Below are positions 6,181 to 48,392 of a stretch of DNA of 64,000 nt, in pieces. The stretch spans positions 45,984,245-46,048,244 of the forward strand of contig CM067354.1 of assembly GCA_034190875.2 (NCBI GenBank), given 5' to 3'. The stretch is from Urechis unicinctus (taxonomy: Eukaryota > Annelida > Polychaeta > Xenopneusta > Urechidae). The notes beneath the pieces were generated by a model that was not told the DNA's origin, searched no databases, and worked only from the letters and a program-made list of their open reading frames with translations. Numbering within the stretch: position 1 is the stretch's first letter; each line of letters opens with the position of its first letter. A program made the position numbers and the translations under genes.

Positions 6181-7651
6181 TCATTAATATAGTTTTTATA
6201 AAACTATCGAAGATAAGTCGGTTTGACTGAAATACGCCCGATAAATGATAACAAATTTCCACGATAGTTGCTTAGGAATGAATGCTCAGTTGTGCCCCCA
6301 AAATGTGTAAGTCTAACTGGTTAGAAATGAAGTTTGAACTTAATTTCTACTCTCTCTGTGGTCACAGGTTTCACAGCAAATCATACTCAAATTTCCCGAG
6401 AACAGGCGCTTCGGGTATCTTACACGAATATAGTGCTTGTTCAGCCCTACAATGGATTGACATAACCACACCTGTGTTGGCCCGGTGAATGGATCAAGAG
6501 AGACCGACTCAGTGCCCAGAAGAGATGATATCATCAGTTCAGTGCCATGTGAGTATAGTTTGCAGCGGCTGCTCTTTGATATTTCTTGTATATCTATGTT
6601 ATGTATCATAACTTTAATTTAAACCAATGAGTGATACGCTCTTCTTTTCCAGATGATCGCTTCAAAGACATCGACTACCAATGTTGAAGTTGACGTACCT
6701 GGTTCGTAAGCAAGCGGTATTCTACCAAGACCACAGGATTTCAAACCGAACTGATGAACGAACCTTTTCCTTTGAAAGCTTCATCTATTATAGGGGTTGC
6801 ACTAGTCTGGCTTGGAGTCTGAGGTACCTGAGGTAGTATTCCGGCTAACCGACCAATGAAACGAAGTCCAATCCCTGAAAAATAAATCTATTTTCTGGTG
6901 CCGCTTGTAGCGAGATAATAGATGCCCTACTACCGGGACAATTAAAGATATAATGCTTAAGGCTATAAAAAGACTACTAAAATAAATCTCGGAACGTCAT
7001 GCGTAAGCAAGACAAATAAGTAGCCGATAGAATGGCGGCTGCAAACGCGTCCCAAAATAACCCCAATTCTTGGAAGGAAGTTCGTAAGAAATTTAGCGCA
7101 CGTGTGTCCAACCCTACCCTTTGTTTGGTCGGCGATGTGGAGTTTAACACCTAACCAGCTGGTCAAATTATGTATATAGAAATTAGAGTCCAGGACACGT
7201 TCAATTCACGTTCAATTCATTTCGGGAACTTAACCCTTAGAAATCAACTGATGTTGCGCTTCGTCAATTTCTTTCATAAGTGCCTGAACAGCCTCAATGG
7301 TTTAGCATCCCATGTGAGTAGATGTTGTTTTCACAGGAGAACAATTGATAGCAATAATGTTCGAACAATAATGCATGCCCTGAACATCAATAATTGTTAT
7401 TTATTACAGCATAGTGAATGCATTAAAGACTATAAGATTACGCCATTCTGAATAGGAGAATATTGCATTGTTCATAAAGGAGCTTATTTCTATTGGGGAT
7501 TCATCATAAGTGCTTACCTGAAATGAAGCTGAAGCTCTGTCAAAGAATTGTGCTTATCATAACTGTTCTATTTGCTTCTTTTCCGTTCTCGTGTGTGTTT
7601 TGCTGTTGCAGCAAATAACAGTTTCTGAACACCTGCTGTGCGAAAATAAAG

Positions 7652-7800
<149 letters not shown>

Positions 7801-8059
7801 GGATCAACAAATTTGCAATTTGCAATGAGTGGGTTTGGGCTGTTGTTCGCGGCAATTTCTTCACAGCGGATATAATAACGTAATATAAGTTTAATTAGTT
7901 AGGGCTGGATTGATACCACAAAAGAGATGGCACTACATTTGAAAACTGTTATCCATTTGAAAGAAACCGGTAACATTGTCACAATCAAGGTTTGAATCAA
8001 AAAGATGTGGATCAGAAGGCATAGCTGAAATAACCGCTGAGACTAGTATTATGTAAGAA

Positions 8060-11569: not shown

Positions 11570-11655
11570 GTTTCCATGCGGCTCATTCCATGTGCGTGAA
11601 TATGCGAGTTACTTTCCAACCGCCAGTTTTGTCATGCAGTGATAACCTTAATATT
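11570..11655. repeat. R1-type block before CA repeat, copy A
   Basis: The CTCATTCCATGTGCGTG core followed by CGCCAGTTTTGT. Orthologous to 40,985-41,065 and related to 24,200 and 30,235. It sits immediately upstream of a (CA)n tract in three of these places. Confidence 0.6.
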
Positions 11656-11713
11656 CTTGTGAAGCCTTATTGTAGCATCATATACACACAGTAGCACAGG
11701 CAGAGCCACACAG

Positions 11714-12183
<470 letters not shown>

Positions 12184-13468
12184 TAAACGCACACAAACGC
12201 AATGCATGGTTACCAATACACAATATGTAACGGCTTCTCGTTTCTTCTATATTGCAAGGGCAGAGAGGTGGTATTTCAAACTTACAGCTGGTGAGCAGTT
12301 TATGAGAAAACATATGGAACCTTAGCATATATAAGTGTCTAACAATAAAATATCCCACGAGATTGAGTTGAAAAGACAACGACACCCAAGTGATGAAGAA
12401 TGATTGTTGCCACCTAATTTATCCAAGGGGGTTTACATCGTTTAAACATGTAAAACCATAAATTCATGAATCATTTATCAAAAGTTAGTGGGTAATGCCT
12501 TACAGCTGCTAATTGCAGCAAGGGATGCACTCCGTTTGCTTGCTATAAAAACGGTAATTTATGATATTGCGTCGAGAGACGAGAAATGAATCTTGACTCA
12601 ATAAGATAAGGTCAAGGAAACCTCTCCATCAATGATTAATCCGACCCCCTCGACACCACTACGTCATAGACAGCGGACCCAACTCATGCCTCTGAGAGTA
12701 ATAGCTATTGGCGACAATCGCCACGGTGTGACACTGCGGTTCCTGAAGCAATACTATAACTTCTGTAGTGTCAGCTGTGTATTGATTGGATTTATGGTGT
12801 AGTAGCTTCTGCAATGACTTATAAGTGTTGGAATATTGCCTCGCTTGTAGGCTTTAATTTCGATGCAGATGTTATAATACGGTTTTCCGCTCAATCGATA
12901 AATACTTCTGCACATAATTGGAATAGATATTGGCATTGTCGTTTTACAAAAACGCTTGAAGGAGTAAGCATGCGTGATAGCCAACGACACAGCTGGCTGC
13001 TAAGCCTCTGAATGAGCAGGGATGGATCAAATGCTTGAAATAAGCAAGGCTTTGACATATCTTTGATAATTTTTTATGTGAAGGTCAGTCAAAACACAAC
13101 CAATACACTTGATAACTGTTCTAGATTTTCTGGTGCTAGAAATCAGCCAGAAGCCACCAATGATAACGTCAATAACAAATGCATGCACGGCATGTCCCAA
13201 GGTCGTCGCAGAGGGAGCATCCTGTTAGTGGTGGTCTTTATCATTTAACATATCTGGTACCTGTACTCAGTATAAATATGGAAAGAGCTGGTTTTAGGCT
13301 TTACTGGAATGAATGCTATTTTGCAGGAATTAAACATGGCGGACGAATATGTTATTTCAAGGCTTAACAACTGCTTTGGAATATTAACACACACGATACT
13401 TATCAACATCTTGTTTTTGAACCAGTGATTTCCCGAACGATTCAACCAGAACCCTTGCCGCGAATCTA

Positions 13469-16310: not shown

Positions 16311-17935
16311 CCATCACTTGCTTATAATGAGCGGAAGCCAAATTGTTCTGAGATTTGTGTCTTAACTGCCTGAACTACGCACTTAAACACGGAGGTCATC
16401 CTAGCCCAGTGCTCAGCTTCACCACTGTTGCATATAATGAAGGAACTTACCAAATTTGTGAACAGGTCATCTTAATTTCGAATGTTTCAAATGTAAGTGG
16501 AGTTTACGTTCCTACCCATGACACAATCAATAGGGCCATCAGCTTATCAGTTTGCTTTTACATGTGCAATTCATTTCTATGGACATTTAACCAATGCGGC
16601 CAAGCTATCACGTCGCAATTCTGCCAATGATGAATATATGTTGAAATGATTAGGGCATCCTTTGTAATCATTCTTACACACACGATCCTTACACGCAGTA
16701 CAATAAGCCATGTCACAATGCGAAAGTATTAATCATCATTGAAGTTGTAATGTACTGACCCTGTAGCGTGCCAGTCTGGCTTGTTTTATAGCAGCCACTG
16801 ACCAATCCACATGCTTGTCATACCGAATACTATTTTCGTATTATTGCGTTTAATGGCGACGAGGCGTAACCAATTCGTACATTTCCAAGAGTTACTAAAC
16901 TACAGTTGGCTGTTAGCAACAATTGTTGATTGTCTGATTGGTTGGTTTCAATGAAATATATAATGCATCGTATAACTCAATGTTTTGAGCATATGAATAT
17001 GAAAACTGATTCAGAATTACATGGCTTCTTCTTGTGTAGCATGGGATAAAACATTATGAAACTTCTGTTGGGATATCACTATTTCTGACTCGTTCCTATA
17101 TCGAAACAGAGAGATCGCACCCTCATCCGCTCTTATATATGGCTGCTAATTGATCCCGATTTAAGGCTCATATGACACGAGGTGGACACTAGTAGATATA
17201 ACAAGCTTCAAAGTGGGCGGAGATTAAGCAATTATCCCTGTAGACGGTTACAGTGCGCATACCTAATAAGTCAACCCGCTCACCTGACGCTTGCATATTT
17301 TTTGTATGCAAAATTGAAGGCTGCTTTCAAGGCCCTCATTTCGATTAACTATGGGTTGTTTGGTATTTTCAATATCAAGAAATGTAAGTCATAGTATGAT
17401 CAAAAGGCCAAAAAAAAGGAAAAAAATAACAATTACGTCCAATCGTCGAAAAAGGAATCGGTGTAAAAATATAACACAATATCTACAGCCCGCGCATTTC
17501 TGGATGCTGCTGAAAATGGGCTCATTCAGGGCAATATATGACAGCAAGGTTTAGGTTAACAACACCAAACGTGGTATGTTTTTGGCCTAGGCCTGGGCTA
17601 AATTTGATCAGTTCACCAAATAAAGCACCATTATCAAATCGACATCTACTGAATATGCCAAATTGACCATAGGAGCCATACCAGTCTGGCGGTTATATCT
17701 CAGTGCTCGGACGTATTACTGAAAACGTATTCGCAACAACTGCAAATGTTGTAAAACCAATCTCGCAATACTATTCATAATAAAGCATGCATCGCTACAA
17801 ATACGAATTTCAAATATTGTCCACATAAATGTGAATGCTCTTCAGATGCCCCAGAGCATTATTATACACACAGACATATCGACACCAGTAGACAGACAGA
17901 CAGTCTGGCACTCCGCCAGACATACACTCAGACAG

Positions 17936-18121
<186 letters not shown>

Positions 18122-19089
18122 AGATATTTCAATGTCATTATGCAGTGCGCAATTCACGCACCATTTCTATATAGTAAATAGGTTTATGATAAACTAACCA
18201 TGAAGGAGACAATTCGCCGACAACAGACTAGTGGATTAACGTCTAAAGCTGCTTGCTGCACCAGGTGGTCGATTCTATTAACGTGTTAGTAGAGTGGCCT
18301 GTGAATGATTATGCCTCATGTGCCGCGAAATGAATCTTGACTCAATGAGATAAGGTCGCGAAAGGCTATTCATCGATGATTAATCCCATCCACTCGAAGC
18401 CAATACATAATAGACAAGGTTCCAATCTGGTGCTCAGAGAGTATGAGGTATTTGCGAATATTGTCTCTGTGTGACGCTGTGGCCGTTATTATTTGGGTAC
18501 CGCAATGTGGGACGGGGATTATACATTATTGAACCTTCTGGTAGTATTTGAAATACGGTTTGCTGCATTACCATGAAATTCATTGGAGATGCTAATCATA
18601 GTCGAAACATTAATAAATGAATTGATATGAGCGATAGACCCGATAACTTGAATAGATCATTCGGTGAAAATGGATTGGTGCTAGCAATCCTGTCAAAGGC
18701 TAGATATGCTCAATTATTTTAATATTTGAATTCATCAATCAGGCATTCAACTATGAGTTTATGCATAATATGTCTCAGATCTGCATGGTTGTAAACTCAT
18801 GCAGACAAAGGCTATGGTCACACTAGACAGAGCTTCCGATTAATGATGGCCATTATCATTAAACACCACTGGCATATATTATACCTAGTTCACTGCTGGC
18901 TTTACTTGCATGACTGCAGTTTCACAGGTAAAACCAAGGTCTATGTCGTATCTCAATATCTACACAATTGCAGGAGAGTATTTGCATGTAGACTGATTAA
19001 ATGATTATGAGGCTTGAAGTAAATATTGAAGCCATTGTAGTGTCAGTTGTGTTTCGTTTGGGAGGTGGTTGACAAGCAATAATTATGCA

Positions 19090-37412: not shown

Positions 37413-37744
37413 ATGTGAGACACAATAACGACAATCCGAGGCCAACGGTTGTCAATCATCTAGAGGATACTTAACAAATCTAGATACATGTGATAAAACA
37501 TCTGACATAATCTTGAAGAATATTGAAACAAGACTGTCAACCGAACAAAGCGTACGCATTTTGCGAAATAGAGCTGCCATTGGTATATTCAAGCAATCTC
37601 CACATAAAAAAATATATACACAGGTTGCTGAACTACATCACACTTAACACACAAAAATCGCACACAGACACACACACTCACACACACTCACATAACATAC
37701 ATACGCTCATATACACACACAAACACACACAGACCTGCGCACAC

Positions 37745-38226
<482 letters not shown>

Positions 38227-38227
38227 G

Positions 38228-38520
<293 letters not shown>

Positions 38521-45450: not shown

Positions 45451-45454
45451 TTAA

Positions 45455-45474
45455 AGGTCACATTCAACGATTTT
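45455..45474 (+). repeat. Left terminal inverted repeat
   Basis: AGGTCACATTCAACGATTTT directly after TTAA; it pairs with 48,369-48,388 with two mismatches. Confidence 0.85.
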
Positions 45475-45528
45475 CAATAATATAAATATAAATTTACAAT
45501 GATTCTTTAATTATTTCTCTAACTTAGG

Positions 45529-46377
45529 TGTAGCTGTCATCACTGCATCCCAATGGACACAGCCAGAGTGTGCTGCAGAAGTTTGGAGATGGCTATAACG
45601 GAGGAATGGACATGCATCACCAAGCATCCCAGATTCCTGGCAAACTGCATGAATACAAATGTGCTGGAAGCGTCCAAATTTGAATCTATTCAAATGAATG
45701 GATCTGTTGGAGATGAGGTCTCTACAATGAGTAAGTAAGCCATTATTGCTACCAAAAAGGACGGTTTGTGGTTGAGCAATCATATTTATTGCTAAGGGAA
45801 CATCAATCCCGCTGTGTAAAATATTCAGTGTTCATATTGATAAACTACAATATATTTCACATAGCCAAGAATAAATGATACCAGTAACATGAAATCCAGA
45901 GGCAGAGCTTACAACTAAGGGAAAAATCCCGCTGTACAAGTGAGGGAATGGTTGACAAATGACAATTGTTTTTTTAACTATACAACTTATTTCAAAACCA
46001 TAGACAACTAATTGACATATTGCTTCAGATTATTCAGGTATCTAGCCTACCGCCAGTTTACATTCTGGATATGGCACAGACTGGGCAAAAGAAACAGGAA
46101 GGTGCAGGCAGTCTGTGTGGTAACAGCTGATAGAGAATCCTTCCCTGACCCGGGCGGCAAATATACAGGTTATCTACAATGGAGCGGAAGATTTCTTGGT
46201 CAGGTTGAATCGACACCCGTGAGCACCTACGAGAAGATCCTTTTCAGGTTTCTCGTACTGGGAGGCAATAGGTGGTGGGACAGTCCTGTCCTCTGCAAGG
46301 TCCTCAGCAAGTCTGTAGCTTGGGTATTTTTGCCTGAGATCAAGCACCTCAGCAATGAACTGATGTACATAGTCTGA
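45529..46377 (+). CDS. P2X7 receptor ballast-domain-like protein, two exons
   Basis: Exon 1 (45,528-45,734) follows a pyrimidine-rich CTCTAACTTAG acceptor and ends at AA|GTAAGC, phase 2. Exon 2 starts at 46,029 after TGCTTCAG and ends at TGA 46,375-46,377. The spliced frame is open throughout. It shows CSCHHCIPM, VCC, TCITKHPRF, YLAYRQFTFW, then VCVVTADRESFPDPGGKYTG, the same order of Cys/His and aromatic positions as the intracellular C-terminal ballast domain of P2X7, which in the receptor binds zinc and guanine nucleotide. About 65 further residues follow with no known match. No P2X channel part (no two membrane segments) is present. The first in-frame ATG is 45,553, inside the domain; an in-frame TAA lies at 45,520, and only 73 bp separate the acceptor from the element's end. 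The true first exon is therefore missing or lies outside the element. A typical AATAAA follows at 46,494. Confidence 0.8.
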
Positions 46378-46493
46378 AGCAAATCAATGTTATTCATATT
46401 TTATGATAGTCATATAATAAGTTAGTAATATTATATGCCCATATCGAATTGGGTAACAATGTTTGTGCATATGAAACTTGTTTAGGTTTCGGT

Positions 46494-46499
46494 AATAAA
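46494..46499 (+). promoter_or_regulatory. Poly(A) signal of the ballast-domain gene
   Basis: AATAAA 117 bp after the stop codon at 46,377, and before the convergent transposase gene ends (46,529). Confidence 0.55.
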
Positions 46500-46528
46500 T
46501 GTCAAAATAACATGTGTTTCATTTTAGA

Positions 46529-48121
46529 TTAATGCATGTACACACAAAAAGAAATTGGTACTTTGACAGGCTTGACAACTGGGTCTCCCTGTCTGGCTTT
46601 GGGGTAAGACACTCTCTATTGGGACTGACCTCCTTCAGTGATGGCTTGAGCTCTGTTCGAGTTTTCATTGAAGTGAATAACTGCTAGGAGCAATCTGGAT
46701 ATATATATAGCAGGTTGATAACATATTGCTAAGTAAGAATTGAAACTTGAGCACATAATTCTACAAAGAACATTACAGCTGTCACTACACAAATGTGCTA
46801 AGCTTCCATGCAACCCCAATTCAAATATACACAATCGAATTTCAAAATATGTTATTTGATTGGTATTACCTGGCCTCCATGGTGGCATAGGGATAGTGGA
46901 CACTCTTTGGTGCGAAGAATATGACTACTTAGTGATATGATTCCAGGCTTGATGTCTGCTCTGATGGGGAAAGCCTGCCAATGTCGTTTAGGAGACTCTC
47001 AATTCCAACTCTTTGTGTGGCTTCAATCCTATTTATGGTTAACACATATATCAATACAGATTACATTTCTTTGGTAAAGTAGTACCACAGGGGCATGGAT
47101 TTCACCATAACGACTCATTTAATAACACTACCACTGGAGTAAATATTTCTATATAAACTTATATGATTAAAAACTAATACCGATCCTTCAGTATTCACTT
47201 CCTGTCCTCTAATAGTGCATGCTCAAATTCCAGGTACAGCTCCCCATGCCCCACGTGCTCATTGACGATATGCCTAGTGACAGAGAGCCACTTAGCTCTG
47301 ACCAGATCTGCATCTCCATCATTTGAGGCAGCACAACAGTAAACATGATTGGAAATGCTTCTGGCCCACTCACTCAGGATGTTGCAGTCTTTTCTTTTCC
47401 CTTTGGCCAGTATTTTCTTCTTGATCCCTTCATTTACAAATAAGTGTGAGTTTGTCTTTAATGCTAACATATAAATTTGGTATGCTAACATGTTAAATAT
47501 TCTTTAAATTGTTACACGGAGTGTTGTGTCGGCTTAAGTCACACAAAGAAACTAACCTTTGGCAACATGCCACACATCAAACCAGGTTGGACTGTAGGTT
47601 GCTCTTCCCTCATGTACTTTTTCACTCCCAAATGTCTGTCAGACAGGGATTTCAAAACAAGCTTCAGACCAGCTAACTCCATAGCATTTGAATTTTTAAC
47701 TTGGTTGCTCTGAAAGAAATTAACAGGCAATTGATAGTACAATAGACATTAACGAATCCATCATATACTGGTCATAAATTGTAACTTTTATACCTGAACA
47801 AGTTGCATGTCTAGAACCTTCGAAATCTTTATAGGTCCATCAGGGTCGACTCCAATGTGGCTAAAGAGAGTCGGTATAGCTTCTTTTCGGAGCCGAGGTT
47901 TCTTACGAAATTCTAGACTTATGAGCAGCTCTGGGTCAGTCTCATAAGCACCATTCTCGAAATGATCAGAACATAGAACTGTCGTAAGGGTAGATCTCCA
48001 GTGTTTACGCTTGACTTTCGACACCCATATGCGGCGCATTTTGCTGTCTTTTGGAAAAAAAAAAAAAATTCACGCCTGACTTCTCATTGTTCCGACAACC
48101 GAACGCACAACAATAAGGCAT
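46529..48121 (-). pseudogene. THAP-domain transposase, five exons, disrupted
   Basis: Exons: 48,121-47,794; 47,709-47,557; 47,427-47,181; 47,028-46,870; 46,694-46,529, all joined by GT-AG introns with matching phases. Exon 1 starts MPYCCAFGCRNNEKSG and, after a +1 slip in a 14-T run (48,055-48,068), continues RRIWVSKVKRKHWRS and LCSDHFENG: the C2CH zinc-binding THAP domain. Exon 2 has VKNSNAMELAG and SDRH...KKYMREE, then a second frameshift near 47,590 before WFDVWHVAK, a probable catalytic-Asp motif. Exon 3 gives GIKKKILAKGKRKDC and ARSISNHVYCCAAS, with TGA at 47,197-47,195 where related proteins have Trp. Exon 4 gives QTSSLESYH, then TAA (46,931-46,929), then VVIFFAPKSVHYPY. Exon 5 gives LLLAVIHFNENSNRAQA, with TAG at 46,618-46,616. 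The stretch between THAP and DMQLVQ that should carry the first catalytic Asp is absent. Confidence 0.85.
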
Positions 48122-48368
48122 AATCCACACCAAGAAACGCACCAGACCGGGAAGAAAGACGAGTAAGTCACACGCTGTCAACCAACCGTGAAGGCTGAAG
48201 ATGTCACTGTCCGGAAATTCACGAATTTTACCGAGCGGTATCTTGTCAGATTCGACGTTGGAAATGTACATTTAAAAATCATTTTTCTTAAAGAAAAAAA
48301 CGCGCAGTCACTTTATTTTTGTTACGATACCCTTTTAAAACATAGAACTTGGGGAAAATGGAATAAAA

Positions 48369-48388
48369 AAAATCGTTGTATTTGACCT
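48369..48388 (-). repeat. Right terminal inverted repeat
   Basis: Reads AGGTCAAATACAACGATTTT on the minus strand, ending against TTAA 48,389-48,392. Confidence 0.85.
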
Positions 48389-48392
48389 TTAA

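Follow-up and report, generated by a model that had tools for sequence, protein, structure and literature searches.

A decayed Kolobok-like transposon copy carrying a P2X7 ballast-type gene in the genome of Urechis unicinctus

Why does a short segment of an annelid genome carry a THAP-type transposase and, convergent with it, a gene for the ballast domain of the P2X7 receptor? The question is raised by positions 45451 to 48392 of a 64,000-nucleotide stretch of Urechis unicinctus DNA (assembly GCA_034190875.2, contig CM067354.1, positions 45,984,245 to 46,048,244 of the forward strand), hereafter called the window, whose numbering is used throughout. A preliminary description of the window had read the segment as a TTAA transposon holding both genes. 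Comparison with relatives across the host genome (1.19 Gb, 926 contigs) leads us to conclude that it is almost certainly a decayed, internally deleted copy of a KolX-bearing (Kol0-like) family of Kolobok DNA transposons, which are common in animals. KolX is the second protein of the Kol0 lineage within the Kolobok superfamily (Kapitonov and Jurka 2007, as cited in PMC9587614), and a P2X7 ballast fold with seven cysteines has been reported for it (Kojima and Bao 2022, PMC9587614). The window copy itself is dead, with exon 1 of its ballast gene deleted and its transposase broken.

The element is bounded by TTAA target-site duplications at 45451..45454 and 48389..48392, inside which lie terminal inverted repeats at 45455..45474 (plus strand, outer end AG) and 48369..48388 (minus strand, outer end CT on the plus strand), delimited by pattern and by comparison of ends. 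The two ends, TTAA followed by AGGTCACATTCAACGATTTT at 45451-45474 (+) and TTAA followed by AGGTCAAATACAACGATTTT at 48369-48392 (-), are identical at 18 of 20 repeat bases, as initially described. When up to three mismatches were allowed, they were the sole matches to the end pattern in the window, with none in 100 shuffled sequences, and with up to two mismatches the host genome yielded 1281 matches (611 + 670) versus 2 for a reversed control. A whole-element similarity search returned 81 matching stretches from the best 40 of 2236 candidates, and a set of 40 copies (39 fetched stretches plus the window element) was assembled, for 21 of which, the window copy included, both ends were in hand; the other 19 were not used for counting ends, as an end was absent, had diverged or lay outside the fetched sequence. 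The window element measures 2942 bp and the other 20 both-ended copies 3249-4207 bp. TTAA was found on both sides of 18 of the 21, with flanks differing between copies, while L015, L034 and L044 each have one base altered in the TTAA on one side. The 5'-RR...YY-3' termini expected of Kolobok elements are seen as AG...CT in the window, and both the AG start (exception L039 with AT, which is not RR) and the CT end (exception L038 with TT, still YY) recur in 20 of the 21 both-ended copies. KolobokP was considered as an identity and rejected, as no long terminal direct repeats were detected at E 0.01 between the first 900 and the last 900 bases in the four of 21 both-ended copies that were compared.

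On the plus strand, the window copy retains two exons of KolX. Exon 2 (45528..45730, splice sites assigned by eye) contains six of the seven zinc-type cysteines (CSCHHC, CC, CIT), its 3' boundary being ambiguous between a GT at 45731 and one at 45735 (by eye), and exon 3 (46038..46173), located by profile and structure matches with the splice site set by eye, reads AYRQF...VC...FPx5YTGY. Taken alone, the plus-strand open reading frame (ORF) 46012-46377 scored 22.2 bits against P2RX7_C (PF20478), below the Pfam cut-off of 23.5, and had no match among solved structures at E 0.1. Joining exons 2 and 3, together with two residues (EW) taken from exon 1 of relatives, raised the score to 47.2 bits (E 3.3e-12, profile positions 80-191 of 192), above the cut-off, and gave an alignment with solved P2X7 structures over residues 475-591 (E 9e-4). 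Inspection by eye finds all seven zinc-type cysteines, as C-x-C-xx-C, CC, CIT and a C preceding the FPx5YTG tail, and in the structure alignment Arg occupies the positions of R546 and R578, where Arg has been reported for invertebrates by Rump et al. 2020 (PMC7016195), who described the ballast domain across animals. On these grounds, window KolX is predicted to adopt the ballast fold. It shares with the P2X7 ballast domain and its ZCD and NANOR-like relatives (PMC7016195) the CxCx2C, CC, CIT and C motifs, the FPx5YTG tail and the two arginines, but differs in being encoded by a transposon, in lacking the P2X channel part (no channel-domain match in the eight scanned ORFs of the window element), and in not keeping H547, P570, R574 and K583.

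The domain had been described as complete-looking, but the gene is incomplete: exon 1, which the other 20 of the 21 both-ended copies have, is missing from the window copy. Comparison with other copies places the deletion junction at 45483..45484 and its size at ~390, ~535 and ~720 bases relative to L009, L038 and L010, respectively. We also observed that the plus-strand ballast frame stays open for a further ~200 bases (46174-46377), across the antisense of the transposase C-terminus; differences between copies in this part are few and track the transposase frame. The ballast ORFs of L070, L072 and L074 end shortly after the domain.

The transposase occupies the minus strand. From its start codon, a THAP domain (PF05485; E 2.3e-12 in the window and 1.2e-18 for the L016 piece) extends over 48121 to 47845, assigned by Pfam and comparison, with a frameshift in a T run and an AIPTLF box near its end. 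This box, EAIPTLF in the window, corresponds to the AVPTIF box which, together with THAP (C2CH, P/W/F), DDE and H2CH features, is usual for Kolobok transposases (PMC6004289). Downstream in the reading direction follow a piece in which the first and second D presumably lie (47555..47679), frameshifted and lacking 11 residues before the first D; a zinc-finger-like region assigned by eye (NHVYCC...H...NEH; 47186..47446); a piece presumed to carry the last catalytic E, a residue likewise assigned by eye (LSPSEQTSSLESYH; 46869..47009); a further piece (RLLLAVIHFNEN...; 46541..46705); and the C-terminal piece (46204..46374), which overlaps the open plus-strand frame. The minus-strand THAP transposase proposed at the outset is therefore real but, as a correction, broken in this copy, with frameshifts in the THAP and first-D pieces and three stops in the later ones, namely one each in the zinc-finger-like region, the piece with the last E and the piece that follows it. 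Candidates for the catalytic motifs in the copies, again assigned by eye, are TTDRH, FDVWH and SSLESYH, and the Pfam transposase matches of the L016 pieces all remained below the cut-off. Overall, the element resembles the Kolobok Kol0 lineage (PMC9587614) in its TTAA duplication, RR...YY ends, transposase with candidate DDE motifs, and second protein with predicted ballast fold and seven cysteines; it differs in the deletion and the breaks that the window copy has suffered. The THAP C2CH pattern, the AVPTIF-like box and the putative DDE and H2CH-type features are also shared with the Kolobok transposases of Xenopus, for which, in contrast to the window element, P2X is nowhere mentioned in the accessible text (PMC6004289).

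Across the host genome, the arrangement was found repeatedly. Pieces of both genes occur in all 40 copies in the same order, ballast exons first and then the transposase from end to start, convergent, with exons 2 and 3 each recognized in 39 copies, exon 1 in 35, the THAP domain in 34 and the first-D piece in 13. In every one of the 21 both-ended copies the ballast exons lie inside the ends, so that the repeated full elements predicted for the family are indeed present and the ballast gene was never seen outside the inverted repeats. Among the both-ended copies, 12 of 21 lack the first-D piece. Five first-D-less copies (L020, L021, L025, L029 and L031) differ by 0.5-1% from their nearest relative and sit in different flanks; such near-identity indicates that a version without a full transposase of its own moved recently, presumably driven in trans, and these five would represent a recently mobile non-autonomous version with the ballast exons still aboard. 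As the copy set was found by whole-element similarity, it cannot by itself reveal elements without the ballast gene, and elements with these ends but no ballast gene, for example short non-autonomous ones, may well exist among the 1281 end-like sites.

Two further searches approached the pairing from either gene. A search with a transposase piece gave 214 matches from the best 150 of 1589 candidates, with 62-98% identity among the matches listed. Five diverged loci (L069-L073; 65-85% identity; L070 and L072 form one family, as do L069 and L076) were chosen by the transposase piece alone, and KolX exons were present on the opposite strand in all five, with exon 2 and/or exon 3 matching at E 1e-15 or better in each. 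Elements other than those of the window's family do, accordingly, carry the ballast gene. A single end-like site, TTAAAGGTCAAAATTAACG, was noted on the ballast side of the L070 and L072 family (L070 2571, minus strand; L072 665, plus strand), the fetched stretch not containing the other end. In the reverse direction, a ballast-profile search of the host returned at least 150 matches (best 150 of 2591 candidates), all above cut-off, and none in 14 control genomes. Nine ballast loci were opened, comprising ranks 1 and 2 (L074, L075), L076 from a repeated group of 59-residue exons, and L077-L082, picked by eye. A convergent transposase-like gene accompanies the ballast gene in eight of the nine (L074-L076, 3/3; L077-L082, 5/6), which supports the earlier suggestion that many stand-alone ballast genes may be transposon cargo, with the reservation that the Kolobok likeness of six of the transposase-like genes is weak. 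It is clear at two loci, at L076 through the THAP domain (E 3.6e-33) and at L082 through a zinc-finger piece (E 1.7e-14). The ballast ORF of L074, 180 residues long, gave E 4.2e-18 against P2X7 structures and E 2.6e-30 against Pfam. Side observations at these loci include a cysteine-rich, CXC-like ORF (by eye) without Pfam match upstream of the ballast ORF in L075 (1883-2200, +), and a retroelement integrase-like sequence (by eye) adjoining the ballast/transposase remnant of L078 (985-1419, +). Using KolX as the query, a protein-database search gave 27 candidates, none of them at E 0.001, and a scan of viral contigs no relative; the only viral contig matching a transposase piece, L068, is microvirus-like by its ORFs in our reading and was set aside, as it shares a short stretch only.

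The preliminary description knew of no published account of the pairing, which is nevertheless not new. It was described in 2022 by Kojima and Bao (PMC9587614), who concluded that P2X7 arose by fusion with KolX, and our literature search, within the accessible parts of the articles, found no further description of a ballast/Kolobok pairing. A mobile-element history of the ballast domain, as the preliminary description also suspected, is hence already in print, and the host copies confirm the pairing further. What is new here are the copy and locus numbers from one genome, including the ballast matches counted above, which lend independent support to the published view that transposons carry the P2X7 ballast domain as one of their genes. 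That count contrasts with the one or few (<10) ballast genes per species given by Rump et al., in the accessible text of which transposons go unmentioned (PMC7016195).

Several observations weigh against the reading of the segment as one copy of a KolX-bearing Kolobok family in which KolX matters, and the first of them concern the other loci. In L074, L075 and L077-L080 the likeness to Kolobok is weak: L074 and L075 matched the zinc-finger probe from the window transposase at E 5e-4 and 2.6e-6, the transposase-like genes of this group did not reach the cut-off in Pfam, either for PF20700 (Mutator, E 5e-4) or for PF21058 (Stereocilin, E 8e-5), L078 and L079 hold transposase fragments only, and the Kolobok identity of the six relies on weak matches, mutual likeness and our own reading. 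No transposase was seen within the 4.5 kb retrieved for L081, a broken ballast locus (190-661, +), and TTAA-bounded inverted repeats were not found in nine loci of other families, most of whose stretches need not span both ends. At the window locus, the exact empty site was not found, the joined flanks having no match in the paralogous region, where the counterpart is ~300 bp long and too diverged. With regard to the gene itself, exons 2 and 3 are out of frame under the plain GT-AG choice (GT 45731); the alternative GT at 45735 would restore the frame in the window, but the relatives shown are GTTAGC-like there (by eye). An in-frame stop occurs in exon 1 of 19 of the 20 copies having this exon (by eye), and of the 16 copies readable at the CC pair, 15 have CS and only the window has CC. 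Finally, the window's family comprises two subfamilies of 5 and 16 copies, between which the differences in KolX fall on codon positions 1/2/3 as 5, 5 and 3 (335 sites), compared with 4, 7 and 16 in four transposase pieces and with 3/256 and 6/98 sites in two introns, a comparison that rests on small numbers. Judging from these patterns, KolX looks relaxed in the window's own family, and the codon positions, exon 1 stops, CS variant and frame problem together suggest that it may not be needed in cis there.

Between families, the pattern is a different one. For KolX exon 3 (42 codons, ungapped, seven of eight sequences, L076 left out), synonymous divergence amounted to 0.70-1.01 per site and nonsynonymous divergence to 0.25-0.49 in 19 of 19 pairs, and for the transposase end the corresponding values were 0.77-0.98 and 0.11-0.26 in eight pairs from five of eight sequences. 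By these estimates, synonymous sites are saturated and the KolX protein is conserved between families, from which we infer that KolX probably does something in transposition. Intact relatives would move by cut and paste, with the THAP domain binding the element ends, as family knowledge suggests, the catalytic core of the transposase cutting and joining at TTAA, and KolX, as a small two-zinc protein from the same element, assisting the transposase. The window copy could at most be mobilised in trans. The role of KolX in transposition can be put to the test, and the domain itself is of medical interest.

Which alternatives, then, have to be weighed? The one that survives best is capture in the opposite direction, an ancestral Kolobok element having taken up an ancient host ballast gene, in which case some stand-alone genes would be original and not relics. 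It draws on the ballast-gene neighbours that sponges are reported to have in common with molluscs, arthropods and echinoderms (Rump et al., PMC7016195) and on the one ballast locus of nine without a transposase in the fetched stretch; we nevertheless consider it unlikely, given that the other eight adjoin a transposase-like gene and that the case made by Kojima and Bao is for an origin from KolX (PMC9587614). Somewhat less credence is given to KolX as a passenger without any role in transposition. The relaxed pattern between the two subfamilies speaks for a passenger, and near-identical copies with different flanks, no first-D piece and a broken exon 1 must have moved although they encode no functional KolX themselves. 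Conservation between families and the presence of KolX at all five diverged transposase loci opened speak against it and make a mere passenger a rather improbable explanation, so that the reading of KolX as a probable participant in transposition is retained.

A more specific form of that participation would make KolX the guanine-nucleotide-using partner of the THAP transposase. The transposase of the P element, also a THAP protein, depends on GTP to pair, cleave and join the ends (PMC7776569), and the likeness of the P element/THAP9 group to Kolobok lies in an N-terminal THAP domain on an RNase H type transposase, the latter presumed for Kolobok. P elements, however, bind GTP through a domain within the transposase and create 8-bp duplications (PMC7776569), whereas the window element uses TTAA and keeps its relative of a guanine-nucleotide-binding fold in a protein of its own, to which the GTP duty might by analogy have been moved. 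Two features agree with this proposal, namely the arginines at the R546 and R578 positions and the between-family conservation of KolX, but the loss of H547, R574 and K583 argues against it, and we regard it as a highly unlikely, speculative extension. If true, the nucleotide site in the P2X7 tail would be a relic of DNA transposition.

Chance is a far poorer explanation still. Seen alone, the window copy could be read as a host ballast gene picked up by, or adjoining, one transposon copy, and the few ballast genes per species with shared neighbours (Rump et al., PMC7016195) would agree with it; with the ballast exons between the ends in 21 of 21 copies and convergent in 40 of 40, this is refuted for the window's family, and the KolX genes of diverged families and the abundance of ballast matches in the genome leave it scarcely credible in general. 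There is virtually no chance that the element is a piggyBac: the TTAA target and the relative of the KolX C-terminal part encoded by a few piggyBac families would suit it, but the THAP domain, the AG...CT ends and the presence of all seven cysteines, mostly missing in the piggyBac versions (PMC9587614), do not, and no piggyBac Pfam match was obtained among the eight window-element ORFs or three pieces of L016. The element is accordingly best kept as a decayed member of a Kol0-like Kolobok family.

As for its genomic setting, most of the window is filled by an old tandem duplication (11143-34985 versus 40314-63999), the pieces of which are ~65-87% identical at an offset of mostly ~27-34 kb and the units of which differ by insertions such as this transposon. 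The element sits in the second unit, within a 4.0-kb stretch whose first-unit counterpart measures ~300 bp, an arrangement that fits insertion after the tandem duplication. Scans of the window for tRNAs and RNA families, and a host-gene scan of ten window ORFs, gave nothing above cut-off. Elsewhere in the window, long microsatellites of CA, TC and TA types were noted at 7609-7835, 11623-12282, 17855-18207 and 37639-38270.

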